Below, piece by piece: positions 5,074 through 29,914 of a stretch of DNA of 47,004 bases. The position numbers and the translations under genes are program-made. Under the pieces are notes generated by a model. The model made no database searches. It was not told the origin of the DNA and saw only the letters and a program-made list of their open reading frames with translations. The DNA comes from Deltaproteobacteria bacterium (GTDB taxonomy: Bacteria > Myxococcota_A > Polyangia > JAAYKL01): the NCBI GenBank assembly GCA_016935665.1, contig JAFGQN010000009.1:1-47004 (forward strand), read 5' to 3'. The stretch's first letter is position 1. Every line of letters begins with the position of its first letter.

Positions 5074-5130
5074 TGCCTTCTTCCCAGCGGCCATAATCCA
5101 CCGACCGCCAACTTCATACAATCTTAAAAA

Positions 5131-5997: not shown

Positions 5998-6139
5998 GAC
6001 TGTCCTCCTCATGTTGGTTGAGACTGCTTTTAATTACTGCACATTTTTTTGATGCCTTTACTGGTATCAGAGGAAGGCACTATTGTAAAGACATGACCGA
6101 ATAACAGCCAAACCACCGGAAAAGAATTGAAACAGGGCG

Positions 6140-7297: not shown

Positions 7298-7496
7298 CTT
7301 TTTCTATTTCTCCCTTTATATGCGGATAAATCGCTTAATGTGTTTTTGACAATATCACAAAACGCTGCATTGGACCACTTCATGTCCTCCAACGAATTCA
7401 GCACACGCTTAAAACTGCTGTGCGTACCATGGAGAATCAATTCAGAAGATATGCGTAAAAGCTTTTTAACCGTCCTAAAAAGAGCGTTACACATTA

Positions 7497-8012: not shown

Positions 8013-8316
8013 CAGTACAAAACAAACAGACCGCATCATCGATGAATCTCCCCCGTCATGAGTAATGTTCCGTTAAAAAACTTCACCTGATTTGGAATCA
8101 GCAGGGTACTCGTCTTTAAAATACGCCGTTTGCAAGCGTGATTACAGCGGGTAACGGGTATCTGTCACAGACATGCGATGTGACGCAGACAAGATGAAGT
8201 TCCATTGGGTACGACCAGGAATGACTTGAAAATTTAGCCCAAAGAGGCCTGGATGGAAGACGTTAAGGGACGCCTTAACAAAAAAACGCGCTAATAAAAA
8301 AAAATTTGGAGTAGTT
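8013..8316. other. Intergenic region, no gene seen
   Basis: About 300 nt without a convincing reading frame. The minus-strand frame that crosses it mirrors the repeats of the downstream gene. The 3' end has an A-rich stretch followed by TTTGGAG, the ribosome binding site of the esterase gene. No clear terminator or promoter pair is visible. Confidence 0.4.
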
Positions 8317-9528
8317 ATGATACGAATATTTATTTTGCTCATGTGCATGGGCACCGTTTTTGCCTGCTCGAGTGGCGATAGCGTTGGAGACAAAAACGAC
8401 AGCACCGATTCCGATGTGAGTGGGGACGCAGATTCCGATGGGGACAGTGAAATGGATTCGGACGGTGATTCAGACACCGACGGCGACACGGATGCCGACG
8501 GTGATGGCGATTCGGATTCAGATGGCGACAGCGACATTGACGGTGACTCTGATGCCGATTCCGATTCAGACACAGATAGCGACGGTGATTCGGATGGGGA
8601 TAGCGACGCCGATACCGACAGTGATGGAGACAGTGACAGCAACAGCGATTCGGATGGGGATACCGAAGACGACACAGAGACCGAAGACGAAGGCCCTCCC
8701 ACGCGGCTCATTACTTTTGGCACGCTGGCCAATCCCAAAACCGTTGTGACGGATGCTAAAAAAATTGCAAAAGCCCAGACCGACCCCCAATCCGCCCAAT
8801 GGCAAAGCAAGGGAGATCAGCATCGCGAATATCAATTCGAAGCCGCGGGCAAAAGCATTCCCTACCGCATTGTGGTGCCCGCCAGCTGGGACGGTCAGTC
8901 AAAGCTGCCGCTTTTTATGTTCCTGCATGGCGGCGGCAGTGATGAAAACAACTATCTGGAACAGAATAATAAACAACTGATCAATCTGGCTTTGGAGCAC
9001 GGCTACCTGCTGGTTTCTCCCAATGGAGCGGACGGTGCCTATGGCAACTTCCTCAGATTGTCAGCCCCCTTTGGCAATGAGGCCGGCGCGGCGGAACTTA
9101 TGGCCCAGGTCACCAACGAGAGCGAACGCACTAATCAATTGAGTGAAATGGACGTCATTAACGTTCTCGAACTGGTTCTGGCCGAGTATCCGGTAAATCA
9201 AGACGCCATGTTCCTGGCGGGTCACTCCATGGGCAGCGGCGGCACCTGGTACATCGGCGGCAAGTATCCACAGTACTGGAAAGGAATCGCCCCACTGTCC
9301 GGACCGTTCGTTCAGGAACATGGATATCCGTGGGACGACCTAAAGGATATGGCTATCTTTGTGACCGAAGGCACTCAGACGCCATCACTGGAAGGCAGTC
9401 AACTTCTGGCTGCATGGTTGGCGGACAACGGATTCAATGCAAAATACAGGGAAGTGAACGCCGACCACGGTGGCATGATCCCCCTCGTACTCCCTGATAT
9501 TTTTGACTACTTTGATGAGCTGCAGTAG
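8317..9528 (+). CDS. Alpha/beta-hydrolase esterase lipoprotein (CE1/PHB-depolymerase-like)
   Basis: A 403-residue lipoprotein, ATG preceded by TTTGGAG. The signal peptide ends in the lipobox VFAC, lipidation at Cys17. Residues about 20-125 are a DSDGD/DTDGD stalk. The remainder is an alpha/beta hydrolase. It has an oxyanion-hole motif LHGGGS, the nucleophile elbow GHSMGSGG (catalytic Ser) and a late catalytic His in ADHGGM. The catalytic Asp is probably in the segment after VTEGTQ, but I cannot fix it by eye. The layout matches esterases of the polyhydroxybutyrate-depolymerase, feruloyl-esterase and acetyl-xylan-esterase group. Next to a GH11 xylanase and two GH43 enzymes, removal of feruloyl or acetyl groups from xylan is the most likely job. 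Probably first gene of a three-gene run. Confidence 0.88.
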
Positions 9529-9644
9529 CCACAGCGGCTCATACCGTCGTTTGCGTCGCCGGTTCACTCATTCCACCCGTTTGTGAAACTTCGCCCCCAC
9601 TTTGTTTATGCTGGTTTGAAAACGCTTAAAAGGATGTGGTGAGA

Positions 9645-10961
9645 ATGTTCAAATGGGTTAATTTCATAATGATAACAGCTGTTTTGGCGACAGCCTGCAG
9701 AGAATCTCAATCCTCCGATGCGTATAGCGATACGAGGGACGGGGACTCCGATGCCGACGGTGACAGTGATGCCGATGGTGATACTGACGCTGATGGCGAT
9801 AGTGACACCGATGGCGACACTGACACCGACGGTGACAGCGATTCAGATGGCGACACTGATACCGATGGTGATGCCGATGCCGACAGCGACGCGGACAGCG
9901 ATAGCGACACCGACGCGGACAGCGACAGCGACACCGACGCGGACAGCGATTCAGCATCCGGCGACGACACCGAAACGGATACAGAAACATCTTTAACCGT
10001 TGAATCCTTCGACGTGACCAATCCGCTGATCCTCGAACGGGCGGACCCCTGGATGTATCGACACACCGATGGATATTACTATTTCATCGCTACCGAACCC
10101 GCTTACAACCGCATTTACCTGCGGCGGGCCCAAACCGCACAGGGGCTTGCCGATGCAGCGGAAAAGGAAATTTGGGCCCGGCACCCCAGCGGAATTATGG
10201 GCGCCCACATCTGGGCACCGGAACTTCATTACATCGACAATGCATGGTACATCTACTTTGCTGCGGGAGCCACAAACGATGTATGGGCCATTCGCATTTA
10301 CGTGCTCGAAAACACATCTGACAATCCGCTTTTGGGCACATGGACTGAGAAAGGCCAGGTAAAGACCAACTGGGAGTCCTTCTCACTTGATGCCACCACT
10401 TTCGAACACAATGGCATTCGCTACCTGGTATTTGCCCAGGACGATCCCAATCAACCCAATTACAGCACCAATATTTTCATCGCCCGGATGAGCAATCCAT
10501 GGACTCTGGATGGACCGCAGGTCAGCATTTCCAAAGCGGATTTTGACTGGGAAAGAGTGACGTACGCGGTCAATGAAGGACCAGCGATCATCAAACGCAA
10601 CAGTCGCATTTTTATCAGCTACTCTGCCAGTGCCACCGACGCCAATTACGCCGTGGGGTTATTATGGGCGGATGAAAACGGGGATCTGATGGATGCGGCT
10701 TCCTGGAAAAAATCAGATGTCCCGGTTATGAAAAGCGGCAACGGTGTGTACGGGCCGGGGCACAGCATGTTCTCCATATCTCCTTTGGGAACTATTGATT
10801 TGCTCGTTTACCACGGGCGTGATTACAAAGATATTGTTGGCGAACCGTTAAACAATCCCGATCGACATATGCGGGTTCAAAAGCTCAACTGGAGCGATGA
10901 CGGCATGCCGGTATTGGGGCCACCGGTCGCCAACGGCACCATCACCATCAGCAACCAATAG
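9645..10961 (+). CDS. GH43-family glycosidase lipoprotein
   Basis: A 438-residue lipoprotein. Translation could begin at GTG 9636 or 9639, but ATG 9645 lies 11 nt after AAAAGGA and gives a compact signal peptide with lipobox VLATAC. An Asp/Ser/Gly/Thr stalk covers residues about 25-110. The rest is a five-bladed beta-propeller of glycoside hydrolase family 43. The catalytic base is probably Asp in [10 protein letters not shown], the pKa-modulating Asp lies in [11 protein letters not shown], and the general acid is Glu in [16 protein letters not shown] matches the His that holds the central ion in many members. Such enzymes release arabinose or xylose from arabinoxylan; the exact specificity cannot be read from sequence. 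It lies about 115 nt after the esterase gene and 27 nt before a second GH43 gene. Confidence 0.9.
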
Positions 10962-10988
10962 CGCCATTAGAGAAAGCCGGTGAGTTCA

Positions 10989-12224
10989 ATGAAAACGAAC
11001 ATTATACTCCTGCTGTTCATATCGGGAATCCACCTCGCCTGCGCAAACGGCAACAGCAGCGATACCTCAGGCAGCGAAACAGACAATGAACAAAATGACG
11101 CGGACAGTGACGGCGATTCCGATACCGACAGCGATTCCGACAGTGACGGGGACAGCGACAGCGGCGGCGACAGCGACGGCGATTCGGACACCGATGCCGA
11201 CAGTGACACTGACGGAGACACGGATACCGATGGTGATTCGGACAGTGACGGGGATGCGGATGCGGATACCCAAACGGATTCCGCATCAGAAAACGCCAAC
11301 GATACAGATGATGGAACCGACTCTGCATCAAACAGCGACAGCGCGGAAGAGACCGACAATGATACAGAACCCGTGGTGGCTGAAAACCCTGTGATTTCGG
11401 TATTAAACGAAGACAATGCCGATCCGGAAATCATGTATTACGATGGCATGTATTACATCTACCCCACCACTTGTCCCACCCGCGACTGGCTCTCCACATA
11501 TTTTAAAGTGTATTCATCTTTCGACATGGTCACCTGGGAAGACCGCGGCATTATTCTGGATTCCAAAAACATTTCATGGGGAAACCGCACCAAAGCCTGG
11601 GCTCCCACCATCCAGGAAAAAGATGGCGTGTTTTATTTTTACTTCTGCCTCAATCACAATATCGGGGTAGCCACATCCGCATCTCCCACCGGGCCATTTG
11701 TGGACGCGCTGGGACACCCATTGGTGGAAGGTCATATCGACCCGGACGTTTTCATCGACGATGACGGACAGGCCTATCTGTACTATGGTCAAACCACACC
11801 GCGCGTGCGCAAACTGGCCGCGGATATGATCTCTTTCGAGGGGAGCGAAGTGTTGCTGCCCACCGACAATTTCAGAGAAGGCGTTTACGTGTTCAAACGC
11901 GACGACCGCTACTACATGATGGGCTCCGAAAACGACGCCCGCGATGAAACGTACCAGGTCACCTACAGCATCGGCACTGGCCCCATGGGACCATTTGTAA
12001 AACAGCCAGGACTCTTTCTCTCTAAAAATGGTAACATGGTTGGCACCGGTCACAACTCCGTGATTCAGATACCCGGTACCGACAATTGGTTCACCGCATA
12101 CCACCGACACTTCATCCCGGGCGGCGGCGGCCAATACCGAGAAGTGTGCATTCAAAACATGACATTTAACGAAGATGGCGCCATCGCATCGGCTATTCCT
12201 GGCGAAACATTTGTGGCCCCCTGA
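10989..12224 (+). CDS. Second GH43-family glycosidase lipoprotein
   Basis: A 411-residue lipoprotein starting at ATG 10989, with GGTGAG 4 nt upstream; the in-frame GTG at 10980 is less likely. Lipobox HLAC, followed by a roughly 100-residue Asp/Ser/Gly/Thr stalk. The GH43 propeller begins near residue 125. Catalytic candidates are Asp in NADPEIMYYDG (base), Asp in HIDPDVFIDDDG (pKa modulator) and Glu in FREGVYVFK (acid). VGTGHNSV carries the usual ion-site His. The sequence differs clearly from the GH43 gene upstream, so the pair probably belongs to different subfamilies with complementary beta-xylosidase and arabinofuranosidase activities. Only 27 nt separate the two genes, so co-transcription is likely. 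Confidence 0.9.
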   Translation: MKTNIILLLFISGIHLACANGNSSDTSGSETDNEQNDADSDGDSDTDSDSDSDGDSDSGGDSDGDSDTDADSDTDGDTDTDGDSDSDGDADADTQTDSASENANDTDDGTDSASNSDSAEETDNDTEPVVAENPVISVLNEDNADPEIMYYDGMYYIYPTTCPTRDWLSTYFKVYSSFDMVTWEDRGIILDSKNISWGNRTKAWAPTIQEKDGVFYFYFCLNHNIGVATSASPTGPFVDALGHPLVEGHIDPDVFIDDDGQAYLYYGQTTPRVRKLAADMISFEGSEVLLPTDNFREGVYVFKRDDRYYMMGSENDARDETYQVTYSIGTGPMGPFVKQPGLFLSKNGNMVGTGHNSVIQIPGTDNWFTAYHRHFIPGGGGQYREVCIQNMTFNEDGAIASAIPGETFVAP

Positions 12225-12377: not shown

Positions 12378-14642
12378 TCAAAGTGTGGCACGCATTCCCG
12401 CCATAAACACCAGTCCCGGCATTGGGTAGCCGTACTCTTCCAACCAGTCCTGATTGAGCAGGTTATCCAAAGACACTTCCACCCGAACGTTCCTGCCGGT
12501 CTCCGTTTGTCGGATGACTGGGTAACTGGCATTGATGTCGAGTTTCCAAAAAGAATCCATTGGTTCCATACGACTGCCACCTGCGGCGGTTAAGTCACCG
12601 ATGATGGCATGGCGCAGTCCAACAAAACGCACTGTCAACTGCGCCTGTAATCCGTCCCGGTCGTCATAGCCAAATCCAAAATTGATTTTATGTTTGGGTA
12701 ACTCCACCAGCTCATCCGAAAGCGCAGTGCTGTTATCGAGCACGTCCCCGGTCTTTTTGGTCACCTGAAATGTATAATTGCCCCACGCGTATAAGTGATG
12801 GGGCAAATCATAAGTGCCTTCCAGCTCAAATCCGGCAAAGTGAACTTTGTCTATATTGTAGATAACCCGGCTCGGTCTATATCCAAAAATGGTTCGAATG
12901 TAATCGCTGACAGCATAGTAATACCCCCTGGCAACCACCATCGTTTTGTCGGCAAAGGCATGCTTCACTTCAACTTCAACCTGGTGCGCATTCTCTGCGC
13001 TCAAATCCTTTCGATGTTCTGGCTGGTACCCGCCAAACCACCAGTAATATTCCGGCAACCCCGGGAAACGCGAAGCATAACGATAACGCGCATTGATTTG
13101 GCCACCTGGCCAGGTGCGTACCGTTATTGCTCCACGTGGCCCCAATGCATTCTCTTTCACTACCTTGGTATCTTCGGTCGGCCCGTCCGCGCGCCACATA
13201 TCAAACCGCAATCCGAGTTCAAGAGTAAAACGCTGGTGAATCTTCCAGATGTCCTGCAGATATACACCGTGCAACATGGAAACAGTCGTCTTTCCGTCAG
13301 AGTCCTCTGGAATCGCCCCTGGCGAAAAGAACGTTTCATCCACATGTTTAACAAGAATATCGCCATAGCCCAGATAAGTTCCTCCACCACCGTATTCCAC
13401 AATATGTGAACCGGCAAAATCAAACATATTTCTTAAATCGAATTGCCATCCCCAATTGTGTTTCTCGGGCGCGGCTTCCCTGCTAAAAACAAGATGACGG
13501 CTGTCTTCAATGGCATAAAAGCGATCTTTACGACGCTGCTCCATCATCCAGCCTCTGATTTCCATGTCAAATGGCTCTGTTTTTCTGGTGAGAGCCACAT
13601 CAAAATGGCCGCGATGATCTCGAATATCGCTCCCATCGCCCCAATCCAGAGGCCCCCACTTCTGTGCGCCATGGTTTAAAAAATTTACCCCTGGTCCCCC
13701 GAGTCGCGCCTCTATTGAATCCGGCAATTGTGAATCATAGTAGGGACTGTCCGGCATGTTATACACAGGCATTCCTGACTGGCTGTATGAGTAACGACCG
13801 TTTGTGCTCAGCTTGAATTTCTTAGGCAGTAACAATGTCAGTCCGCCGCCTATGGATTCATTCTGGGCAAACCCGTTTCGCAAGTTGCCCTCGGTTTCAT
13901 AATGTCGTGCATAAACGTTGAATAACACAGGACCAATGCCAAAGGATTGCGAAAGCTGTGCGCTCCACGTGCCATCGCTGCCGCCCGTCATGCGTAAAAA
14001 ACCGTGAAAATCCGTTGACCCTTCACGAGTAATGATATTGAGAACACCGCCCAGATTGTTGCCGTATTTTGCGGGCGCAGCACCGCGATACAACACCAGA
14101 CGTTCAACATTTTCGAGTGACAGTGATGTCCAGTCAACATAATATCCACCACAAACGCCAGCGCCATTCAACTTGCGGCCGTTTAACAGAATGAGCAAAC
14201 GGCTTTCATCCATCCCTCTCAGTCTAATCCTGCTGTTCTGACTTCCGCCCGAATCCCGACGAACAAAATCCACGCCGGCAGAGTTTTCAAGGAGCCCATC
14301 GACCGACGAGGCGGACAGATTGCCTCGGACTTCAGCTTCATCAATAACGGTCTGTGCTGTTGATTTACTGTCTGCCTGAGCTCGCACGACAACTTCAAAT
14401 TCTTCAACAGGCTGCGGGCCGACTTCTGTTGGCACTGATTCGAGGGGGAATGGGGCTGTCAGCTCTTCATCAGTCGATTTGGGTACTGTTTGTAATTCAT
14501 TTTTTCTTCCAGAATCGATCGCTCTCTCATGTTGGATGTTTGCATTTGTTTGTTCTGTATCGGTGAAGGAATTTGCAGCGCCACCCGCGCAAAGCATAAA
14601 TAATGTGAAAAAAGCTGGAAATATTTTGTATCTAAATTTCAC
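12378..14642 (-). CDS. TonB-dependent outer-membrane receptor (BtuB/FecA-like)
   Basis: A complete TonB-dependent receptor of about 754 residues. An upstream ATG at 14669 is in frame, but AAGGAG lies 7 nt before the GTG at 14642, so I start there. A type I signal peptide is followed by a Ser/Glu/Thr-rich spacer of about 70 residues, then a possible TonB-box-like segment (EEFEVVVRA). The plug domain has SRIRLRGMDESRLLILLNG and LVLYRGAAPAKYGNNLGG...NIITREG. The rest is a 22-strand barrel ending with PGLVFMAGMRATL. It imports a substrate too large or scarce for porins, driven by TonB. It is divergent from an ABC importer operon at 14757 across a palindromic operator, so the two probably move the same ligand. 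A metal chelate, oxyanion complex or corrinoid is possible; specificity is not visible. Confidence 0.92.
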   Translation of the reverse strand: MKFRYKIFPAFFTLFMLCAGGAANSFTDTEQTNANIQHERAIDSGRKNELQTVPKSTDEELTAPFPLESVPTEVGPQPVEEFEVVVRAQADSKSTAQTVIDEAEVRGNLSASSVDGLLENSAGVDFVRRDSGGSQNSRIRLRGMDESRLLILLNGRKLNGAGVCGGYYVDWTSLSLENVERLVLYRGAAPAKYGNNLGGVLNIITREGSTDFHGFLRMTGGSDGTWSAQLSQSFGIGPVLFNVYARHYETEGNLRNGFAQNESIGGGLTLLLPKKFKLSTNGRYSYSQSGMPVYNMPDSPYYDSQLPDSIEARLGGPGVNFLNHGAQKWGPLDWGDGSDIRDHRGHFDVALTRKTEPFDMEIRGWMMEQRRKDRFYAIEDSRHLVFSREAAPEKHNWGWQFDLRNMFDFAGSHIVEYGGGGTYLGYGDILVKHVDETFFSPGAIPEDSDGKTTVSMLHGVYLQDIWKIHQRFTLELGLRFDMWRADGPTEDTKVVKENALGPRGAITVRTWPGGQINARYRYASRFPGLPEYYWWFGGYQPEHRKDLSAENAHQVEVEVKHAFADKTMVVARGYYYAVSDYIRTIFGYRPSRVIYNIDKVHFAGFELEGTYDLPHHLYAWGNYTFQVTKKTGDVLDNSTALSDELVELPKHKINFGFGYDDRDGLQAQLTVRFVGLRHAIIGDLTAAGGSRMEPMDSFWKLDINASYPVIRQTETGRNVRVEVSLDNLLNQDWLEEYGYPMPGLVFMAGMRATL

Positions 14643-14715
14643 AACAGGACTCCTTGATGTCACGTACATTTCAATCTTTGCTGAATAATTATTAGGCCTT
14701 CCCAGAATTTTATGG

Positions 14716-14740
14716 TATCACGATTTTTAAAATCGTAATA
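14716..14740. promoter_or_regulatory. Hyphenated palindrome, putative operator in divergent promoter
   Basis: Arms ACGATTT (14720-14726) and AAATCGT (14730-14736) are separated by TTA. After one mismatched base on each side, TAT (14716-14718) and ATA (14738-14740) extend the symmetry. It lies between the TonB receptor start (14642) and the binding-protein start (14757), and could bind one dimeric repressor controlling both. The regulator is not identified. A related CGATTTAAA/TTTAAATCG pair brackets the promoter at 18998. Confidence 0.6.
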
Positions 14741-14756
14741 TCCAGGATATTTACAA

Positions 14757-15974
14757 ATGTCAAACAATGAAAATCACTATTGCCAACAGGCCGGAAACAA
14801 AATGAAAAAGACGGCGATATGTCTATTCTTCACAGCATTTGCGCTGTATTCATGCCAAGCCCGGGAAAAAAAAAATGCCGAGGCCGACGAAACCGCTCTT
14901 AGCGAGAACGTCACTGTTGCAGACAAAATCACCATTACGGATTCCAGTGGCAGAAAGGTAACAGTTCCGCGCAATCCGAAGCATGTAATTTGCTCAGGGG
15001 CGGGTTGTTTGAGATATTTGACGTACCTGCAATGCAGCGACAATGTTGTTGCAGTCGACAGCATCGAAGTGGAATCGCGCTGGTACGAGTCCAGACCATA
15101 CCTACTTGCCAATCCGCAATACAAAAAAAAGCCGGTGTTTGGTCAATTTCGAGGTCAGGATAATCCTGAACTCATTGCCATGCTGAACCCGCAACCCCAG
15201 GTGATATTTAAAACGTACGCGGATATGGGATATAACGCGGACGACCTGGCCAATCGAACGGGTATACCCGTTGTTACATTGGCTTATGGAGACCTGACAA
15301 AAAAAAGAAATAAAATGTTCGAATCTCTAGAACTTATCGGGAAAATAATGGGAAAAGAGCAACGAGCGTCAGACGTTATCGCTTTTTTTAATCGGACGAT
15401 AACGGATCTCAATGAACGAACTGCTGAAGTTCCTATCGAAAAAAGGCCGACATGCTATGTTGGCGGTGTCGCTTTCAAAGGTGCCCAGGGAGTCAAATCC
15501 ACACAACCCGAGTATCCACCGTTCCTTTTTACCAACACTCCCAACGCTGTGACACTCGAAAACGAAAATATGTTTAAAAACGCTGTGGCGGTCATATCTC
15601 CTGAAAAACTGATAACGTGGAATCCAGATTACATTTTTATAGATCTTTCCACTTTGCACGCGGATGAAAAAATCAATGCGCTTTATCAGTTAAAAAATAA
15701 ATCGGAATACCGCACTCTAAATGCAGTTAAGAACGGCGCACTGTATGGCCTTCTTCCATACAACTATTATGCAACCAATTACGGATCGGTGCTCGCAAAC
15801 TGTTACTATACCGGAAAACTTCTCTATCCCGATCATTTCAAAGATATTTCCACACGAAAAAAAGCCAATGAAATATTCGAATTCCTTGTTGGCATGCCGG
15901 TTTTTGACGATTTGGCCAAACCTTTCAATTCATTCGCTTTTAATAAAATTAATTTGAATCATCTAAAAAAATGA
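14757..15974 (+). CDS. FecB/BtuF/MolA-type ABC substrate-binding lipoprotein
   Basis: A periplasmic binding protein of the Peripla_BP_2 class (COG0614). It captures the ligand brought in by the TonB receptor and hands it to the permease. AGGA at 9 nt supports ATG 14757. The ATG at 14802 gives a more normal type II signal peptide (MKKTAICLFF, lipobox ALYSC) and may be the true start. The N-lobe begins ITITDSSGRKVTVPRNPKHVICSG, the standard opening of this class. The rigid helix and C-lobe follow, with a distinctive NYYATNYGSVLANCYYTGKLLYP near the end. The gene overlaps the permease by ATGA. The close FmdE partners make molybdate, tungstate or another metal species a candidate ligand, by inference only. 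It is divergent from the receptor gene. Confidence 0.9.
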   Translation: MSNNENHYCQQAGNKMKKTAICLFFTAFALYSCQAREKKNAEADETALSENVTVADKITITDSSGRKVTVPRNPKHVICSGAGCLRYLTYLQCSDNVVAVDSIEVESRWYESRPYLLANPQYKKKPVFGQFRGQDNPELIAMLNPQPQVIFKTYADMGYNADDLANRTGIPVVTLAYGDLTKKRNKMFESLELIGKIMGKEQRASDVIAFFNRTITDLNERTAEVPIEKRPTCYVGGVAFKGAQGVKSTQPEYPPFLFTNTPNAVTLENENMFKNAVAVISPEKLITWNPDYIFIDLSTLHADEKINALYQLKNKSEYRTLNAVKNGALYGLLPYNYYATNYGSVLANCYYTGKLLYPDHFKDISTRKKANEIFEFLVGMPVFDDLAKPFNSFAFNKINLNHLKK

Positions 15975-17026
15975 ATCTGAACCAACGTTATAAAAAATAT
16001 CGACAGAAAAAGGTTTCGACAATTATTCTTCTGACGGGACTGATTATAGCATCCCTGATAGTCAGCCTGTCCATCGGTGCAGCCGAAATTTCACCCGTTG
16101 AAGTAATAAAAATACTTTTGGGACAATCAAACCAGTATAAATGGGAGATGATTGTTGTTAACATACGACTGCCGCAAGCCATTGCCGCGATTGTCGCGGG
16201 ATTTGGGCTCGCTATTGCCGGTGTAGCCATGCAGGCGATTTTAAATAATCCGCTGGGCGCCCCGTTTACGCTGGGCATAACACACGCAGCTGCCTTTGGC
16301 GCCGCTTTGTCTGTCGTACTGCTGGGGACGGGCACCGTTCAGAACAATTCGGGCGAAGCAGTAAAAATTGATAATCACTACCTCACAACTGTAGTCGCCT
16401 TCCTGTTTTGCGTCGCGGAAGCGGCCTTCATTCTGATGGTTGCTAAACTTAAAAAAACATCTCCGGAAGTAATGGTGCTGGCTGGAATCGCAATGGGATT
16501 TTTGTTTTTTGCTGGGACCATGTTTCTCCAATATTTAGCGGATGATATTCAACTGGCAGCAATGGTGTTCTGGACTTTTGGCGATTTGAGTCGTGCGGAT
16601 TGGAAGGAAGTTTTTATTATGACTGTTGCCACGGTTCCAGGCTTTATGTATTTCCAATACAACAGCTGGAACTATAACGTGCTTTCGTCCGGAGAAGAAG
16701 CGGCTAAAAGCATGGGGATACGAGTCGACTTGTTAAGAACCGGTGGGTTATTCATTTCGGTCGTCTTAACCGCTGTAATTATTTCGTTTTTAGGTATTAT
16801 TGGATTCGTGGGGCTGATTTGTCCACACATGATGAGACGAATCGTTGGAGATGACCATCGCTTTTTAGTTCCGGCATCTGCACTTTGCGGCGCCATTTTG
16901 TTGCTTTTGTCAGACACAATAGCGCGTGTTATTTTACTGCCGCATGTTTTGCCGGTGGCTGTACTTACTTCCTTTTTGGGGGCGCCTCTTTTTGTCTACC
17001 TCCTTGTAAAAGGATATCGGAGATGA
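15971..17026 (+). CDS. FecCD-family ABC transporter permease
   Basis: A 351-residue inner-membrane permease of the FecCD/BtuC type, which forms a homodimeric channel for the importer. Family motifs are present: RLPQAIAAIVAGFGLAIAGVAMQAILNNPLGAPFTLGI near the N-terminal third and FLGIIGFVGLICPHMMRRIVGDDHR in the last third, the loop that contacts the ATPase. About ten hydrophobic segments can be counted, as expected. It overlaps the binding-protein gene by four bases (ATGA) and the ATPase gene by four bases, so the three are translationally coupled. Length is normal for the family. Confidence 0.94.
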   Translation: MNLNQRYKKYRQKKVSTIILLTGLIIASLIVSLSIGAAEISPVEVIKILLGQSNQYKWEMIVVNIRLPQAIAAIVAGFGLAIAGVAMQAILNNPLGAPFTLGITHAAAFGAALSVVLLGTGTVQNNSGEAVKIDNHYLTTVVAFLFCVAEAAFILMVAKLKKTSPEVMVLAGIAMGFLFFAGTMFLQYLADDIQLAAMVFWTFGDLSRADWKEVFIMTVATVPGFMYFQYNSWNYNVLSSGEEAAKSMGIRVDLLRTGGLFISVVLTAVIISFLGIIGFVGLICPHMMRRIVGDDHRFLVPASALCGAILLLLSDTIARVILLPHVLPVAVLTSFLGAPLFVYLLVKGYRR

Positions 17027-17811
17027 AACTGATTATCGACAATTTGAGTTTCGCCTACAAAAGCAAAGATGTACTCAACGACATTTCATTCAGGGTTGAA
17101 AAAAGAGAACTGTTGTCCATATTAGGGCCGAATGGCGTTGGAAAAACAACTCTGCTCAGATGCATCAACAGAATTCTTAAAGCACAAAAAGGAACAGTAT
17201 TTGTTGGGAAAGACAATCTTTATAAAATGTCTACCTTTGAAATTGCACAAAATATCAGCTATGTGCCACAGCATTCCCGTTCGTCCAGGCTCACCGCGTA
17301 TGACGCAATTTTAATGGGACGAAGACCTTATATAAATTGGCGTGTGTCACAGCGAGACTACGACATTGTAGAAAAGATAATACGAAGACTCGATATGGGC
17401 TGCCTTGCCTTGCGGTATATAGATGAGATGTCTGGCGGAGAGCTTCAAAAGGTGAGCATTGCACGGGCATTGGTTCAGGGCCCAAGGGTTATTTTGATGG
17501 ACGAGCCCACGGCCAGCCTCGATATGCGAAATCAGATGGAAATACTGACACTGATACGAGAAATCGTTGAAAGAGACGATATCATCACGGTCATGAGTAT
17601 TCATGACATAAATACGGCGCTGCGTTTTTCAGAGAAACTATTGTTTGTAAAAGACGGCAAAATCCATTCCGCAATATCACCATCGCAAATAGAGGAAAAA
17701 ATAATAGAAGACGTATACGGTGTACGAGTGAAAATTCAGGAGATTAACAATTGTCCGGTGGTTTTCCCCCTTGAATCAATTATTAAGGAGAAATCAAATG
17801 GTGGAGATTAA
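17023..17811 (+). CDS. ABC transporter ATP-binding protein (FecE/BtuD-like)
   Basis: A 262-residue ATPase that powers the FecCD-type importer. I start it at ATG 17023, which overlaps the permease stop as ATGA; longer in-frame starts lie inside the permease gene. Walker A is GPNGVGKTT at about residue 35-43, the ABC signature is MSGGELQKVSIARAL, Walker B is VILMDEPTASLD, and the switch His is in SIHDINTAL. The following gene begins 14 nt before this one stops, with its ribosome binding site inside this coding region. This ties the ATPase to the TrmO-FmdE fusion. Confidence 0.94.
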   Translation: MKLIIDNLSFAYKSKDVLNDISFRVEKRELLSILGPNGVGKTTLLRCINRILKAQKGTVFVGKDNLYKMSTFEIAQNISYVPQHSRSSRLTAYDAILMGRRPYINWRVSQRDYDIVEKIIRRLDMGCLALRYIDEMSGGELQKVSIARALVQGPRVILMDEPTASLDMRNQMEILTLIREIVERDDIITVMSIHDINTALRFSEKLLFVKDGKIHSAISPSQIEEKIIEDVYGVRVKIQEINNCPVVFPLESIIKEKSNGGD

Positions 17812-18901
17812 AACAATTGGCGTGGTAAAGAACGAATTCAATGACCTTGCTGATCCGTTTGAGATGAAGAAATGCATCAGCAAAATTGAGATAGACAAAA
17901 TATATGCAGACGGTTTATATCGTTTGGATGAATGCGATGAAATTCAGATCATCTTCGATTTTCACAAATCGACGTCTTATAAGTTACGCCATGTCAATTA
18001 CTTCGGCGAAGACAAAGGTGTGTTTGCTGCATGTTCTCCTCACCGGCCCGGTTCCATCGGCGTGACCACCGTCAAACTTCTTAAAATTGAAGATTGCATC
18101 CTCACGGTTACCGGCCTGGATGCAATAAACGAAACACCGGTAGTGGACATAAAGCCCGCCTTTTTTTCATCCACTCCTTTGGAACGAAAGGCAGCGGATG
18201 TGGCGGAAATGAAAAAATTCCCCAGAAAAAAACTTCTTCCGTTAATCAAAAACAACGACACGGAAACGCTTCTTTTAGAAGCGGGTATTCTCCACGGTCA
18301 CTATTGTCCTGGATTGAGTATGGGCGTCGTTGCCGGTGCCGCTGGAATGCGCTATTGGCAGGAAACCAGCGATGGACTGGAAGATATTGTGGCGATAGTA
18401 GAAGTCAATAGTTGCATGGTGGATGGGATTCAATTTGTTACTGGATGCTCCATTGGCAATAATGGGCTTATCTACAAAGATTTTGGCAAGACCGCTGTCA
18501 CCATTGCCAAAAGAAGTACCAAAGAAGGCATTCGATTTTTACTTAAACCCGATTTTCATCAGAGTCTAAAAAAAGACAATCCTGCGTTTACGGAACTCTT
18601 CACTCAGGTCATAGTGAATCAGAACAGAGACCCGCAACTGGTTAAAAAATTCAAGGCAGCGTCTACAGAGGCGTCATTCCACTTGTTGAAATGGCCATTG
18701 GACAAGTTATTTGATCAGAAGCTTGTCACTGCAGACATCCCCGATTACGCGCCAATCAGGGATAGCCACATTTGCGAAAACTGCATGGAAAGTTACATGG
18801 ACATTAAGGCGGGAAATGAAAACCGCTGTCTGCCATGTTCAGGAAAAGCGCATCATCAACTGGACGGGCGTGGTATCTCTCTAATAAAACAAATTGTGTG
18901 A
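17798..18901 (+). CDS. TrmO/TsaA-like domain fused to FmdE domain and zinc finger
   Basis: A 367-residue protein. AAGGAG 7 nt upstream fixes the start at ATG 17798. Residues 1-120 match the TsaA/TrmO (UPF0066) beta-barrel, known for SAM-dependent methylation of t6A37 in tRNA. The segments IGVVKNEF, FDFHKS, FAACSPHRPGSIG and ETPVVDIKP parallel IGxVxSPF, FHRS, FATRSPxRPNPIG and GTPVLDIKP, though the RPNPIG core is changed to RPGSIG. Residues about 165-290 are an FmdE domain with HGHYCPGLSMG, whose His and Cys residues bind metal in known structures. The C-terminus is a treble-clef-type finger (CENC...CLPC), also known in FmdE proteins. As last gene of an ABC-importer operon, it may handle the imported metal or cofactor inside the cell. 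Combined function unknown. Confidence 0.85.
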   Translation: MVEIKTIGVVKNEFNDLADPFEMKKCISKIEIDKIYADGLYRLDECDEIQIIFDFHKSTSYKLRHVNYFGEDKGVFAACSPHRPGSIGVTTVKLLKIEDCILTVTGLDAINETPVVDIKPAFFSSTPLERKAADVAEMKKFPRKKLLPLIKNNDTETLLLEAGILHGHYCPGLSMGVVAGAAGMRYWQETSDGLEDIVAIVEVNSCMVDGIQFVTGCSIGNNGLIYKDFGKTAVTIAKRSTKEGIRFLLKPDFHQSLKKDNPAFTELFTQVIVNQNRDPQLVKKFKAASTEASFHLLKWPLDKLFDQKLVTADIPDYAPIRDSHICENCMESYMDIKAGNENRCLPCSGKAHHQLDGRGISLIKQIV

Positions 18902-18997
18902 ACAAATCGTTTCCACCTCGAAAAGACTCATTTAAATAGTTGCACTCATCTTTCTCACTGGCAGCGGCGATTTAAAAATGCAGCGACACGTTTTTTC

Positions 18998-19026
18998 TTG
19001 ACACTTTGAGGCGCAGAAACTACTCA
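18998..19026 (+). promoter_or_regulatory. Putative sigma-70 promoter with flanking inverted repeats
   Basis: A perfect -35 TTGACA (18998-19003) is followed after 17 nt by TACTCA (19021-19026), a plausible -10. CGATTTAAA (18968-18976) and TTTAAATCG (19049-19057) flank it as an inverted pair. The second resembles the right half of the palindrome at 14716. It would drive the exported FmdE-like gene at 19137. Confidence 0.5.
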
Positions 19027-19136
19027 ATCACCTCAGTAGCACAAATTATTTAAATCGTAGCACGCGCATTTCAGGGTACCATGTCCACCCTGGAGTGCAG
19101 CTGTTTGTTGACGACCTTCAAACAAGGAGAAAGCGT

Positions 19137-20258
19137 ATGCAAAATAAAACATGTCAAAACAAGACTTTAAATAACCTGCCTGTCGCACTGTTGTTGCTGG
19201 CGGTGTTTACGACGTTGGCACATCGAGTTGAGGCCAATGAGGATATGAATTATCAGTACTGGAAATTTGTTGGCGCTTCAGCTGCTGTTCAGGCCCTCCG
19301 CCATATGCATATTACGCGTCCACACAGCGGTGATTTCATTGTGCTCACCAATGCCGGTTATGCCGAAGTGCAGGGACGCACAACCCAGGGCGCCCTTGAT
19401 GGTCCTGGGCACACACTGGGCGTCAGTCGTGGTAATCATTCTCTGGTGGAAATCCACAGCAGTGCAACTGCGTCCCTATGGTTTGCTGTTTTTCATAAAG
19501 CAAGTGGTATATGCACTTTCCTGGAATTTGATCCGAATGCCCTAAAACGTATGCGCCGCATTGGGAACAACTTTCATTACCCGCTTTTTTCAACGATTGA
19601 AAAAACAACTGTTACAGCAGACGCCATTTTTGCCAATCCCGATGACGCTATTTCGGTGTTTAGCGGCAAGATATTTAATGGAAATGAGTTTCGAATTGTA
19701 ACCATTATCAACGGTATTCTGGCGGGCGTCCCCACTCCAGCCATTCGAGCCATGGAATTTCACGATCACTATTGCCCAGGGGTTACATCCGGTGTGTTCA
19801 TAACAGAATACCTGAAAAAATATTTGGTTGCACCGCCTGGCAGCAGCTACTTTGTGCAAAGCGTTCAGCCATGGTGCAAAGAGGATGCGCTGCTGGCCAT
19901 TCTGAATACAACTCCGGGCAAAAAATCATACCATCTCGTGTATTCAACTGATGAGGATATTGCACGATGGAAGGATGATGTACAGGATGCCGCCACCATC
20001 GTTTACTGGAAATCGCCAGATGCCGACGTATGGAGTGGTGTGGTACTGGGATTTGAATTTGGCGATACTGATTGTCCGATCTACGGCAACTCATTGTTGG
20101 ATAAACTGTGTTCAGATCTTTATTACCTGAAGAAATTGAATACCCCTGGTTTGTATGTACGAGAGGTGCACCGATTCACGCTGCCCAAAGGAACGAATCC
20201 CCAGGATTACGCTCGTCCAGGAGTCGACCCGATGGAACAACTTGGCCTGCTGAAGTAA
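19137..20258 (+). CDS. Exported FmdE-like protein
   Basis: A 373-residue protein. AAGGAG 8 nt upstream supports ATG 19137; an earlier in-frame start at 19095 lacks a site. A hydrophobic signal peptide (about residues 14-33, ending HRVEA) indicates export to the periplasm. The N-terminal 190 residues are of unknown fold. At about residue 205 the motif FHDHYCPGVTSGVFI appears, matching the HGHxCPGxxxG metal-binding motif of FmdE. WCKEDALLAILNTTPGK follows, resembling the second conserved FmdE block. No C-terminal zinc finger is visible. It follows the ABC-importer operon by about 235 nt and carries its own promoter candidate. A periplasmic metal or cofactor carrier is a reasonable inference; the name FmdE refers only to homology with a methanogen operon gene, not to formylmethanofuran chemistry. 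Confidence 0.8.
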   Translation: MQNKTCQNKTLNNLPVALLLLAVFTTLAHRVEANEDMNYQYWKFVGASAAVQALRHMHITRPHSGDFIVLTNAGYAEVQGRTTQGALDGPGHTLGVSRGNHSLVEIHSSATASLWFAVFHKASGICTFLEFDPNALKRMRRIGNNFHYPLFSTIEKTTVTADAIFANPDDAISVFSGKIFNGNEFRIVTIINGILAGVPTPAIRAMEFHDHYCPGVTSGVFITEYLKKYLVAPPGSSYFVQSVQPWCKEDALLAILNTTPGKKSYHLVYSTDEDIARWKDDVQDAATIVYWKSPDADVWSGVVLGFEFGDTDCPIYGNSLLDKLCSDLYYLKKLNTPGLYVREVHRFTLPKGTNPQDYARPGVDPMEQLGLLK

Positions 20259-20626: not shown

Positions 20627-20995
20627 TCAGGATGATGCTTTCTTTGAATTCTTCTTTTCGGCTTTCTTTCGCAGCTTTACGATCTCCACCGATAGCGCCA
20701 CCCATTCTTCGGTCAGGCTTTTGAAGGTCTGATAATTCTTCAACTGCTTTTTTGTTTCCGCCAGGGCGTCAATTTTTACAAACTGTGTCGTACTCTTTCC
20801 CTTGTGCGAATAGCTGACCTGGTAGTAGGGACCGTGTTTTTTTGGATTCTCAGGGTCTTTGCAGCGACAGGTTGGATTGCCACATATATTGTATTGTCTT
20901 GACAGGCTTCCCGGTCGCATTTCCCCCAAAGATGCAAGGTGTTTTTTAATGTCTTCAATTCGGGCAAGAAAACGCAAAATTTCTTTGTCATGCAT
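20627..20995 (-). CDS. DUF6788-type protein associated with insertion sequences
   Basis: A 122-residue basic protein. It contains the family core of an RPGSL segment followed by a CGNPTCRC zinc-knuckle-like motif, HGPYYQVSYSHKGK and a Lys-rich C-terminal coiled coil. Proteins of this family are common beside transposases, where they are thought to be IS accessory genes with unproved function. The frame is intact, but no good ribosome binding site precedes the ATG at 20995. An IS4-like transposase fragment follows directly. It is probably a stranded passenger of a decayed element. Confidence 0.7.
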   Translation of the reverse strand: MHDKEILRFLARIEDIKKHLASLGEMRPGSLSRQYNICGNPTCRCKDPENPKKHGPYYQVSYSHKGKSTTQFVKIDALAETKKQLKNYQTFKSLTEEWVALSVEIVKLRKKAEKKNSKKASS

Positions 20996-21102
20996 ACCGA
21001 CAGCATGCTGCTGCTATCGGCATTTGTCAAGGAGAAAATTGTGACACTGCCGTAAAAAGTCTTCACCAGGAGTCCTCTGACAATTCCAAGGCTGAATTCA
21101 TT

Positions 21103-22122
21103 ATGGGACATTCATTCCAGGCGGTCTCTTTACTCGTCGGTTCTTCAGTTGGACAGGTGTTTGCCGTGCCGCTGGTTTCCCGCATCTGCGAGGGTCTCAC
21201 CACGCATCGTTCACAAAAGCCCAAAACTCTGCTGGACAAACTCGTCGTTCTGTTTTTCGATGTCGTCCAGGCTGTGGATGTGCCTGCCATACTGGTTGCC
21301 GATGCCTATTATGCCCGCCAGAAAATCATTAGTCCTTTGCTGGCAGAGGGACATCACCTGGTCACCAGGGCCAGGTATAACGCGGTAGCATGGAAACCAG
21401 CAACCGCGTCGAAATTGAAGAAACCAGGTCGACCAAAACTCTATGGCGACAAGGTGGTTCTGCGAAATCTCTTCAAAGCTGGAAAGTCTTTTCCAACTGC
21501 TCAAAGCCCGGTGTATGGGGAAGAAAAAGTGACTATCAAATATTGTGTGGTTGACCTGCTGTGGCGCCCCGTGGGAAGGCATGTTCGATTTGTTCTCGCT
21601 AAACATCCCGGCAGGGGAAGAATCATTTTGATGTCCTCCTCTCTGGAGCTCGACGCCATAACCATCATCCGACTGTATGGTCTGCGTTTTAAAATCAAGG
21701 TGTCGTTCAAACAGGCTGTACACACTCTCGGTACATACGCATATCATTTCTGGATGAAGGATATGAAACCAATTAAACGGTGTTCGGGAAATCAAAACAT
21801 TGTCTACAAACCCGAAAAATACCGCAGAGCGGTTAGAGGAAAAATGGATGCATACCATCGATACGTGCAGCTCGGCTGTATCACGCAGGGGCTGCTGCAA
21901 CACCTCGCAATCAATTTTCGAAGCGACGTCTGGCGAAAATTTCACAGCTGGCTCAGAACCATGAGGAAGGACCTGATCCCATCGGAGATGGTCGTCGCAA
22001 TGGCAATGAAATCAGGCTATTCGAAGTTTCTCATGGATAGAAACACTGAGCATGTCTTAAAGATATTCATCCTTGATAGAACAAATTGTCGGAATCTATC
22101 GGTTTTTTCAATGACAGGATGA
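21103..22122 (+). pseudogene. N-terminally truncated DDE transposase, catalytic Glu replaced
   Basis: A 339-residue frame (also open upstream to about 21000) encoding the middle and C-terminal parts of a DDE transposase. The second catalytic Asp is visible in VADAYYARQ. At the expected Y-x2-R-x3-E position, the protein reads YGLRFKIKVSFKQ, so the catalytic Glu has become Lys. The first catalytic Asp region is missing, replaced by sequence that does not look like a transposase N-terminus. Conserved stretches such as YAYHFWMKDMKP and GNQ support the assignment. Truncation plus the changed Glu make it inactive. I cannot name the IS family with certainty. Confidence 0.75.
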
Positions 22123-22468: not shown

Positions 22469-22962
22469 AATTTGATTATCGTCCAGCTACCAACTCCGAC
22501 ACAGGCGCGCTTTGCGTGTGCAACGGATTGGTGTCTGCGGCAGGATTGCCGCAATCCAGGGGTGAATATAGAGAACCGCCGCTGTTGACGTGTGGAGATG
22601 AGCATGCCGTGGCAGGCGCCCTCGTAACGCTCATCCCCAATTACACCGCTGAAGATGCCCTTGATTATATCCGCGGAAAACCGCAACTGCGCATGACGGC
22701 ATGAAAAAAGCGGTATCGCAAATACCGGTTCCTTCTGCAGATGTTTTGGGGTGTCAGCAGTGAACGTCTCTGCCCATGGACGCCATCAAAGGGAAAAAAA
22801 TCAATCGGAAATCTGAGTGACGAATCCAGAACAACAAATGATTCACCTGGCGGCCGGGCCATCGCCGTTCTGTGCAGCTTCTTTTTTTTTCATTTACCAA
22901 CTCCGAATCAATGCCGGAAAGGAACTTGCCAGTTCAGTACATTGTAGTTAGTTTGATTGACT
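22469..22962. other. Gene-free stretch between IS debris and fur-like gene
   Basis: Short overlapping frames exist on both strands, but none has a ribosome binding site or recognisable motif. A small stem, CGGTAT/ATACCG, lies near 22710. No clear Zur-like box was seen immediately before the Fur-family gene. It may be degenerated IS sequence. Confidence 0.4.
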
Positions 22963-23394
22963 ATGACGAACAAGAAATCTATTGCTCTCCTTCGAAAAAG
23001 AGGCTTAAAGGTCACCCGGCAGCGCACTCTGTTGCTAAATGCCATTTTAGAATCGGATCCGGTTTTTTCAACGACAGCGCTCGAAGAAAAAGTGAGCGGA
23101 CACATGGATGTCGTGACGATTTATCGAATTCTGGCGATCTTTTTACAACATAGCATTGTTCGAAAAGTTGTCTCAAACGATGTGACCCGTTTTTACGAGC
23201 TCACCCATGAGCGTAATCCGAACCATCCCCATTTCGTCTGCACCAAATGTAAACGCATTACCTGTCTGAAATCGATGAGGCGTCAGGATAATCTGCGACT
23301 CCAAAAATACGCGCTGGAAAACGAGGTGCAGGACATATCCATTCAATTCACCGGCATTTGCGCGGATTGCAAGAATTCAAAAACGACGACTTGA
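22963..23394 (+). CDS. Fur-family metal-responsive regulator
   Basis: A 143-residue Fur-superfamily repressor. It has an N-terminal winged helix (LKVTRQRTLLLNAIL, then VVTIYRILAIF, the recognition helix) and a C-terminal dimerisation domain. HPHFVCTKCKRITCL and a second CADC provide the structural Cys2-Cys2 zinc site. ATG 22963 is used; a TTG two codons upstream is possible and no strong ribosome binding site is seen. The gene sits 70 nt before a DksA paralog of the zinc-free type and heads the zinc island. It may therefore be a second Zur, or a Fur/PerR-type sensor. Another Fur-family gene lies at 29915. Which one reads the boxes near znuA is unknown. Confidence 0.88.
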   Translation: MTNKKSIALLRKRGLKVTRQRTLLLNAILESDPVFSTTALEEKVSGHMDVVTIYRILAIFLQHSIVRKVVSNDVTRFYELTHERNPNHPHFVCTKCKRITCLKSMRRQDNLRLQKYALENEVQDISIQFTGICADCKNSKTTT

Positions 23395-23427
23395 CATCCT
23401 GAACTCCCGCCTTACTTTTTGTCTTAC

Positions 23428-23444
23428 ATGCAAATTGATTGCAT
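23428..23444. promoter_or_regulatory. Inverted repeat before dksA-like gene, putative operator
   Basis: ATGCAA (23428-23433) and TTGCAT (23439-23444) form perfect 6-bp arms around ATTGA, 20 nt before the ATG at 23464. A TTGACA at 23391-23396 upstream could be a -35. The location suits a metal-dependent repressor site, but the arms do not match the longer boxes near znuA. Confidence 0.4.
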
Positions 23445-23463
23445 TTGGATTCAGGAGGGCACA

Positions 23464-23865
23464 ATGGCTGCAAAGAAAAATGGTCTAACCACCAAACAGG
23501 CATCCGAGCTTCAAAAGCAATTGCTGGCTCGGAAAGAAGCTCTGATGAATAGTATCAACACCCGCGCAGAGACCAGCACCAAAATAGCGCCCGATGAATT
23601 GATGGAAGAGTTCGATCAGGCCGCCGTGAGCCAGGATCAGGCCGTTACGTTGCGGGTGATGAACAAGGAGGTAAAGCTCCTCGAAGAAATCAATCACGCG
23701 CTTGCCAAGTTCGATGAGGGCGAATACGGACTCTGTGAAGGCACCGAGGAGCCCATTGGCTACCGCAGGTTAAATGCGGTTCCCTGGGCGCGGTACAGCA
23801 TCGAATACAAGGAGCAGCGGGAGCGGGATCAGATGCAACGCTCGGAACGGCTTCCAGGCCGTTAA
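23464..23865 (+). CDS. DksA/TraR-family protein without zinc finger (DksA2-like)
   Basis: A 133-residue protein, start at ATG 23464 after AGGAGGG. Residues about 10-75 form the long coiled coil with an acidic tip (DELMEEFDQA) that enters the RNA polymerase secondary channel. The C-terminal globular part (YGLCEGTEEPIGYRRLNAVPWARY) keeps the DksA frame but only one of the four zinc cysteines: C-x2-C and the later C-x2-C are lost. This resembles DksA2 of Pseudomonas, which works without zinc and is induced by zinc starvation. The genomic setting, between a Fur-family gene and a znu operon, supports the same role here. It would replace the zinc-dependent DksA in the stringent response. Substitution-based reading, not experimentally shown. 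Confidence 0.85.
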   Translation: MAAKKNGLTTKQASELQKQLLARKEALMNSINTRAETSTKIAPDELMEEFDQAAVSQDQAVTLRVMNKEVKLLEEINHALAKFDEGEYGLCEGTEEPIGYRRLNAVPWARYSIEYKEQRERDQMQRSERLPGR

Positions 23866-23979
23866 CGAGTGCAACTCGCCGCGACCAGGATTGGCGCACC
23901 GCTCCTTTGCCCGGGCCACCATCTCGTACAAAACATGAAGCAAACCTGACATCGGAATGAGGCCAGAATAGGGAGAGAT

Positions 23980-24429
23980 ATGAAAACACTGACTAACATG
24001 GAAACATACTTACGCGAGACTGCAGAGGGGATGAACAGCCTGCGCAAGATGGATAAACTCGAAATGTATCGCATGCTTGCCGAAATGGGGGACAATATGC
24101 CGCCACTGAACGAGGGAGAGCAAGTGGACAAAAATTTTGTTCGCGGATGCGCTTCGAATGTGTTGGTCGCTGCAGAGTGCGTTGACGGCGTCATGGTTTA
24201 TCGCGGGTCCAGCGAGTCGCATGTGGTGCGCGGATATCTCGCGGTACTTGTCGACGCGTTAAGCGGTCTTTCGCCGGATGACGTGGTGAGAGGGTCTCAC
24301 AGTGCGGTTGAAGCGTTCGCTCGTGATACGGACATCAAGGCCAGCCTGACCCCCAACCGGGCGAATGCATTTGGCAATATCTACAAGTTGATGGTGACGA
24401 AGGCGGCCAGTCTGACGGCGGCAACGTAG
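23980..24429 (+). CDS. SufE-like Fe-S cluster assembly protein
   Basis: A 149-residue protein with the SufE fold. It shows a helical N-terminus (RKMDKLEMYRMLAEMG), the motif DKNFVRGCASNVLVAAE holding the persulfide-accepting Cys, and SESHVVRGYLAVLVDALSGLSP. SufE proteins take sulfur from the SufS cysteine desulfurase and pass it to the SufB scaffold. The C-terminal tail (TPNRANAFGNIYKLMV) is also typical. GGGAG precedes the ATG. The gene follows the DksA2-like gene by 114 nt on the same strand and may be co-transcribed. No other suf genes are visible. Why it sits in a zinc island is unclear; it may serve as a stress-specific SufE. Confidence 0.87.
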   Translation: MKTLTNMETYLRETAEGMNSLRKMDKLEMYRMLAEMGDNMPPLNEGEQVDKNFVRGCASNVLVAAECVDGVMVYRGSSESHVVRGYLAVLVDALSGLSPDDVVRGSHSAVEAFARDTDIKASLTPNRANAFGNIYKLMVTKAASLTAAT

Positions 24430-24557
24430 CAGCCGCTGCGCAGTGCGGGACCGGCATCTTTGGCCACACGGATTGCGGCACTGGCTTGAAAAGGGAAATG
24501 TATTAAACCGGCCTTTTCAGAACACAATACTGACTTGCAACGGGATGAGGAATGCCA

Positions 24558-25316
24558 TCAAAAAAGGTAAGGCTGACCTGGTTCCTGGGTTCTTTTTATT
24601 GTGGACTCTTCCATGAGCATTGCGCGGTGACCGTCTTTTTTCAATACCCTGAAAGTGCCTTCCACCTCCACCCATGTGCCTTCCGAAAATTTTGGAAGGT
24701 CGTTTCCCTGCACCAGCACCAGACCGGGATACGCGTCGGCGACACAGCAGGTGACGATGAAACGAAAAACAACACGCGTGTCGTCGCCGAATTCCTTTTT
24801 TACCCATGCGTCGCTCTGATGCAGCATCCCCACCAGCTTCACGCGTTTTCCCTGGTAAACGCTGGGTGCGTCACCCAAATCGAGGATGTTGACCTTTTGG
24901 GCTTTCACCCGGCATTGCCTGTTTCGCCGCGGATTTTGCAGAGGGTTCAAAGATGTCTGGTCGTTCGTCTCGAATTCACCGTTTGGCGTCAACGACGCGA
25001 AACCGAGGGAACGTTTCTCAAACGCATACGAATCGAGTGACACGCCCCGCGCGTTATGCAGATAGAATAGGGGCAAAAGTAAAATCAACGCGGTTAGCAC
25101 CTGGCGAGGATTAAACTGGCGAGACCGCATTTCTCCGACACCAACCAGCAGGAAACCTCCGACAATGAATGTGCCAATCCCGAGGACATAGCCGAATTCG
25201 GGTCTCAGAAATGCCGTGTATCGATCGTTTATCAATAGTTCAGACAGTTCCTGGAACCAGGCGAAAAAAAGGAGCGGGCGCCACCAGATGGCGAGGAAGT
25301 TTGCAATGGTACTCAT
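24558..25316 (-). CDS. YcgQ-like protein (TIGR03943/COG3689), permease partner
   Basis: A 252-residue protein starting at ATG 25316, overlapping the permease stop as ATGA; longer frames run inside the permease. The N-terminal third has about three hydrophobic segments (LAIWWRPLLFFAWF; YVLGIGTFIVGGFLLVG; LTALILLLPLFYL). The C-terminal half is a soluble domain with YQGKRVKLVGMLHQ, FRFIVTCCVADAYPGLVLV and WVEVEGTFRV, the usual YcgQ blocks with a CC pair. COG3689 proteins are almost always encoded next to COG0701 permeases. The pair appears in zinc regulons of several bacteria, though its transport role is unproved. Last gene of the znu operon here. Confidence 0.85.
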   Translation of the reverse strand: MSTIANFLAIWWRPLLFFAWFQELSELLINDRYTAFLRPEFGYVLGIGTFIVGGFLLVGVGEMRSRQFNPRQVLTALILLLPLFYLHNARGVSLDSYAFEKRSLGFASLTPNGEFETNDQTSLNPLQNPRRNRQCRVKAQKVNILDLGDAPSVYQGKRVKLVGMLHQSDAWVKKEFGDDTRVVFRFIVTCCVADAYPGLVLVQGNDLPKFSEGTWVEVEGTFRVLKKDGHRAMLMEESTIKRTQEPGQPYLF

Positions 25317-29146: not shown

Positions 29147-29234
29147 TGGAGTATTCCTTGTATTTAGATTCCGGCATATGTAATCCGTAGTCCGACAAAG
29201 TTGCAAAATTTGGCTTAATACCAATAATTTTGCC

Positions 29235-29870: not shown

Positions 29871-29914
29871 GCGTAAAGGATGCGATTCAATGTGAGGAGC
29901 AGGAGTTCGATTTT

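Follow-up and report, generated by a model that had tools for sequence, protein, structure and literature searches.

What does the locus at positions 12,378 to 20,258 of contig JAFGQN010000009.1 (Deltaproteobacteria bacterium) bring into the cell, and what part do its two FmdE proteins, one cytosolic and one exported, play in that import? We analyzed the whole 47 kb stretch (hereafter the window), which belongs to a genome of 8.16 Mb in 249 contigs (G000). A preliminary description of this DNA had listed a TonB-dependent receptor divergent from a binding protein-permease-ATPase operon, then an FmdE fusion and an exported FmdE-like protein, and had left the substrate unnamed. All of these genes are present in that order with the expected domains (Table 1), and leaving the substrate unnamed is formally still right, since specificity is read from genomic context, as are the identity of the metal, that of its chelate and the direction of metal transfer. 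Reading that context, we give a probability of roughly 0.5 to the locus being a TonB- and ATP-driven importer that takes up a transition metal as a chelate, with nickel (or nickel/cobalt) as the most probable metal and a small metallophore of the amino-acid type, or some other organic ligand, as its carrier.

The four genes between 14757 and 18901 on the forward strand overlap by 4, 4 and 14 bases, an indication that the binding protein, permease, ATPase and FmdE fusion form one translationally coupled operon, from which the receptor gene diverges. The exported FmdE gene follows after a gap of about 235 bases, in which we found no clear terminator. With a Peripla_BP_2 binding protein, a FecCD permease and an ATPase in a single operon, the transporter is a FecBCD-type ATP-binding cassette (ABC) importer of metal chelates. 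Its binding protein belongs over its full length to the same subfamily as TM0189 of Thermotoga maritima (2ETV), with E-values of 3.3e-79 as a single sequence and 5e-137 with a four-member profile. No FmdE gene beyond the fusion and the exported protein was found in the 8.16 Mb genome, nor a second copy of the operon at other FmdE loci within the same phylum.

Table 1. Genes and candidate regulatory regions of the locus, in window coordinates
Feature	Coordinates	Strand	Evidence and remarks
TonB-dependent outer-membrane receptor, 763 amino acids	12378..14669	-	Pfam Plug 2.4e-16, barrel 4.6e-30
Divergent promoter region, 87 bases, possible operator	14670..14756		25-base near-perfect palindrome at 14716-14740
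Type III periplasmic binding (lipo)protein, TM0189 (2ETV) group	14757..15974	+	PF01497, 1.7e-15
FecCD-family ABC permease, single copy in operon	15971..17026	+	PF01032, E=1.4e-84
ABC ATPase	17023..17811	+	PF00005, 6.6e-30; listed open reading frame opens at 16885, start at 17023 preferred
Cytosolic TrmO-FmdE-zinc-finger fusion, 367 amino acids	17798..18901	+	PF01980 (TrmO_N) 4.2e-23; PF02663 (FmdE) 3.1e-33
Intergenic region with two CGATTTWAAW half-sites	18902..19136		Half-site also in divergent promoter
Exported tandem FmdE, about 373 amino acids	19137..20258	+	Likely start at 19137, open reading frame can open at 19095; FmdE C-terminal core

The exported protein carries a hydrophobic signal sequence, and the Pfam FmdE profile matches its C-terminal part only (9.1e-12, 45.6 bits for a cut-off of 22.9, 61 of 133 profile positions). 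Profile-profile comparison detected FmdE-like halves at both ends, with a probability of 97% for each (E=7.6e-11 for the N-terminal and E=2.2e-10 for the C-terminal half), and the HxHxC motif is missing from the first half, so that what had been called FmdE-like is a tandem FmdE, in which one chain plausibly corresponds to the FmdE dimer seen in crystals. Residues H209, H211, C213 and C247 are invariant in 21/21 homologues (22-45% identity to the window protein) and correspond to the residues that hold mixed Zn/Ni in the Desulfitobacterium FmdE 2GLZ (PMC2954224). The protein has both the core domain and the four ligands of FmdE (PF02663), and ligand conservation predicts a His-His-Cys-Cys metal site. 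A structural model built from three sequences, of moderate confidence (predicted local distance difference test score of 62) and used for this comparison only, gave 2glz as its only significant fold match. A plasmid search returned no exported FmdE.

The cytosolic protein joins a TrmO/TsaA (UPF0066) domain to an FmdE core and a terminal CxxC...CxxC zinc finger, which bears out the FmdE fusion of the preliminary description and identifies its partner. The core holds the HxHxC motif and second cysteine that form the metal site of the PF02663 domain, all four ligands being identical in 32/32 aligned family members; in the zinc finger the first cysteine pair is identical in 32/32 aligned FmdE proteins and the second in 31/32, with one gap. 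Against the TrmO model TIGR00104 the fusion scores 81.3 bits, under the curated cut-off of 93.25, so that tRNA methylation is not to be assumed; a stand-alone TrmO from a related cluster (L075) reaches 115.5 bits and clears it. TrmO and FmdE are two separate genes in that cluster, which lies in genome G445, and a TrmO-like remnant is found in an Electrothrix cluster. Being fused in one genome and neighbours in others, the two sequences indicate a functional link, and the TrmO domain may have a role in the same system.

To find where else exported FmdE occurs, we scanned a genome collection, in which its only close relatives were those of Electrothrix aarhusensis (48% identity) and E. gigas, then ran a profile search of 395 genomes of the phylum of these cable bacteria; loci were also read by tblastn, yielding a total of 23 loci in 23 further genomes whose neighbours were read. 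A TonB receptor immediately adjoins exported FmdE in 14 of the 23 and lies within about three genes in 2 more, and three of the remaining loci sit on short contigs. The pairing occurs in unrelated anaerobes as well as in cable bacteria. With 2 to 25 receptors per genome counted and one gene per kilobase assumed, about 0.05 cases of adjacency would be expected by chance in 13 genomes, a rough estimate because the counts favoured genomes with clusters. The adjoining receptors fall into three groups without strong mutual similarity. The window receptor belongs to one of them, its full-length relatives (32-35% over 673-723 amino acids) being receptor A of L075 and the receptors of L076, L078 and L090, the latter three encoded directly next to exported FmdE.

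Every component of the window locus has a relative in a single cluster of G445 (L075/L149, Desulfobacterota), which reads on one strand FecCD, ATPase, binding protein, receptor A, flavin reductase, FmdE, CooC, receptor B, exported FmdE and TrmO. Identities to the window proteins are 41% for the permease, 42% for the ATPase, 38% for the binding protein, 32% over 716 residues for receptor A, 34% for FmdE and 48% for exported FmdE. This cluster in another phylum, together with the receptor adjacency in 14/23 genomes, excludes a chance grouping, and the neighbourhood survey that the preliminary description had called for thus does not return the lack of association elsewhere that it named as a refutation. 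Its picture of a complete path from outside to cytoplasm, in which periplasm and cytoplasm each have a putative metal protein, is supported by the four ligands kept in both FmdE proteins and by the recurrence of the association. As a side observation, flavin-reductase-like proteins that share 46-70% identity with the E. gigas copy lie beside FmdE genes and receptors in L075, L076, L089, L090, L095, L123 and L136.

What points to nickel is the company that these genes keep. In L075 and L076 the immediate neighbour of exported FmdE or of its receptor is a homologue of CooC (best PDB match CooC 3kje, 2.8e-17), and L087 has one at a distance of three genes; CooC is the nickel-loading ATPase of carbon monoxide (CO) dehydrogenase. 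L074 has, after exported FmdE and a receptor, a tandem of two nicotianamine-synthase genes, with a PDB match to thermonicotianamine synthase. Such a pair stands directly after a CbiM/NikM-CbiQ-ATPase importer in E. gigas (L104:5609-9621) and is also present in G353; overall, nicotianamine synthase was found in 3 of 19 other genomes searched, all 19 picked for carrying exported FmdE. E. aarhusensis (L039/L094) combines exported FmdE, a receptor, a cytosolic FmdE and a NikA/Opp-type importer in one locus, an importer of the kind put forward for nickel in cable bacteria (PMC11247825), and outside the loci with exported FmdE, cytosolic FmdE adjoins NikA/Opp genes (L123, L138) and TonB receptors. 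The genome of the window itself encodes three [NiFe]-hydrogenase large subunits and a HypB (L145:10582-11724) whose N-terminal region is His-rich, exceeds 100 residues and suggests nickel storage; from these we conclude that the organism needs nickel.

Several observations weigh against nickel import by this operon. No gene inside the window names a metal, and neither nicotianamine synthase nor CO dehydrogenase was found in the window genome, which leaves other genomes as the source of the strongest nickel markers, and any metallophore used would be foreign or of another type. The genome has a further importer, of the CbiM/NikM-type energy-coupling factor (ECF) class for Ni/Co, which means that the operon is not the sole candidate for nickel import; a search of this genome for a NiCoT permease was negative. 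Tetrapyrrole methylase genes neighbour exported FmdE in L078, L089 and L095, and a cob(I)alamin adenosyltransferase-like gene does so in L083. TM0189, the closest solved relative of the binding protein, bears an iron(III) label, given by annotation only, and nicotianamine-type ligands bind Fe, Zn, Co and Cu as well. Among the tetrapyrrole methylases near exported FmdE (L040:1281-3014, L078:14881-15732, L089:15166-16137), at least two have apparent signal sequences, and two sit near an amino-acid permease.

The tetrapyrrole-related genes bring in the corrinoids, which, with molybdate, tungstate and a metallophore, made up the ligand list of the preliminary description. For import of a corrinoid or other cobalt tetrapyrrole speak these methylase and adenosyltransferase-like neighbours, a receptor plug that resembles BtuB, and permease and ATPase profiles with good scores against BtuC and corrinoid ATPase models. 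We consider it improbable all the same: the BtuB, BtuC and corrinoid ATPase models all stay far under their cut-offs, so that the locus does not qualify as a vitamin B12 uptake system, and BtuF is not among the solved relatives listed for the binding protein. The two cobalamin riboswitches of the window are about 25 kb downstream (45513-45707 and 46805-47004, reverse strand), next to genes for a methionine-synthase-like protein and a MerR-type regulator, and none is at the operon. When we searched the related loci with Rfam for nickel or cobalamin riboswitches, the only one recovered was a cobalamin riboswitch in G445 (L075), which precedes a different receptor; the same search returned two c-di-GMP riboswitches in L094. 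Molybdate or tungstate, suggested by the name of FmdE and by MolA, is very unlikely to be the substrate. MolA (3psa) matches the profile of the binding protein moderately, at 2.3e-19 against 5e-137 for TM0189, and YiuA-type proteins outscore it as well, which sets the importer apart from MolABC; oxyanions are not expected at a two-His two-Cys site, and no molybdenum gene was noted in related clusters. Haem is disfavoured too, as we saw no sign of it as a ligand. From that list, then, context favours a metallophore-type chelate of nickel (or nickel/cobalt) and says little for corrinoids or for molybdate and tungstate.

FecCD/FhuD-type transporters mostly carry ferric chelates, and the same machinery could import an iron-siderophore, in which case the FmdE proteins would help to strip the iron, as would the flavin reductase in other clusters. 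The iron(III) label of TM0189 and the recurrence of flavin reductases in related clusters agree with this, but the recurrent neighbours also include CooC, NikA/Opp importers and nicotianamine synthase, and the two-His two-Cys FmdE site has been seen with Zn/Ni (PMC2954224). We therefore regard iron as unlikely, if less so than the corrinoids.

Zinc enters through the surroundings, since the locus might import zinc chelates as part of a probable zinc-uptake island that begins some 3 kb downstream (22957-33262). This island comprises genes for a Fur-family regulator, a TIGR03943 protein, an SO_0444-like permease and ZnuCBA-like ABC proteins, along with a second TonB receptor gene and, after it, a gene for a His-rich protein. 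Opine zincophores use nicotianamine-synthase-like enzymes. FmdE sites can hold Zn (PMC2954224). An insertion sequence-like element (remnants at 20627-22122, with a DUF6788 protein and a DDE transposase) separates the island from the operon, however, and zinc-uptake genes are not recurrent neighbours in the homologous loci examined, so that we place zinc level with the corrinoids in probability. Elsewhere in the window, ExbB-like and TonB genes at 37015-40010 are a possible energy source for both receptors, and a run of secreted proteins at 614-12224 combines long low-complexity Asp/Ser/Gly/Thr linkers, similar to others in this genome, with varied domains including GH43.

The promoter region between receptor and operon contains the inverted repeat TATCACGATTTT-T-AAAATCGTAATA, a near-perfect 25-base palindrome at 14716-14740. 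Elsewhere in the genome it has one exact and two one-mismatch matches, all within coding sequence, and no regulon could be drawn from it. The half-site CGATTTWAAW, which was picked after the fact, matches four times in the window (14726, 16236, 18968, 19048) for 0.66 expected; all four matches are at the locus and three lie in its two intergenic regions, making it a possible shared operator.

For import of a nickel (or nickel/cobalt) chelate, the parts could work together as follows. The receptor would bring the metal chelate into the periplasm, where the TM0189-type binding protein would hand it to the FecCD permease, an expected homodimer, and its ATPase. Exported tandem FmdE would hold metal in the periplasm through its His-His-Cys-Cys site and may buffer it or exchange it with the chelate. 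The cytosolic TrmO-FmdE-zinc-finger protein would accept the metal, process the ligand or do both, and could supply [NiFe]-hydrogenase maturation.

Parts of this arrangement have precedents. Axelrod et al. (2010) reported that most FmdE genes adjoin metal-ion transporters, described one structure whose site holds mixed Zn/Ni, and listed the FmdE-UPF0066 fusion as an architecture (PMC2954224). The statement in the preliminary description that FmdE proteins lack a proven role outside methanogens thus holds for a demonstrated biochemical role and overlooks these three points. The family members described there (2GLZ, 2GVI, 3D00) share with the window proteins the FHGHxC and second-cysteine site, the cytosolic zinc-finger tail and the transporter neighbours; unlike them, the exported window protein is a tandem whose first domain lacks the ligands, carries a signal sequence and is tied to TonB receptors, and TrmO as a separate partner gene in one cluster and a remnant in a second goes beyond that work. 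For cable bacteria, a Nik/Opp/Dpp operon directly preceded by a TonB receptor has been described as a putative nickel importer, in a text that contains no FmdE, TrmO or nicotianamine (PMC11247825). The cable-bacteria locus (L039/L094) has, like ours, a TonB receptor, an ABC importer and both cytosolic and exported FmdE, whereas the window uses a FecBCD-type importer. In Helicobacter, nickel has been proposed or shown as the substrate of such an importer with a TonB receptor: NiuBDE in H. pylori, and in H. mustelae CeuE/FecDE and the receptor NikH (PMC5140060). The likeness is one of system type, and those systems are described without an FmdE component. Within the limited literature collection searched, we found no mention of FmdE together with TonB-dependent receptors, and the tandem architecture of exported FmdE and its conserved linkage to receptors of three groups appear unreported. 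The associations with CooC, nicotianamine synthase and NikA that point to nickel are likewise new here.

We tentatively propose, as a possibility with less than even odds, that exported tandem FmdE is a new class of periplasmic metallochaperone for nickel (or nickel/cobalt), which would strip metal from a metallophore imported by TonB receptors, work with several types of ABC importer and have TrmO-FmdE as its cytosolic receiver. FmdE has long been without a demonstrated biochemical role, and its link to receptors, CooC, nicotianamine synthase and nickel-type ABC importers suggests a specific one, the hand-over of metal from a chelate; if the proposal is true, the family would have a transport function outside methanogenesis. 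The link also concerns cable bacteria: nickel is present in their current-carrying fibres, and the route that it takes across the outer membrane has been described as unresolved (PMC11247825). If true, the proposed metallochaperone would bear on the supply of nickel for these conductive fibres.

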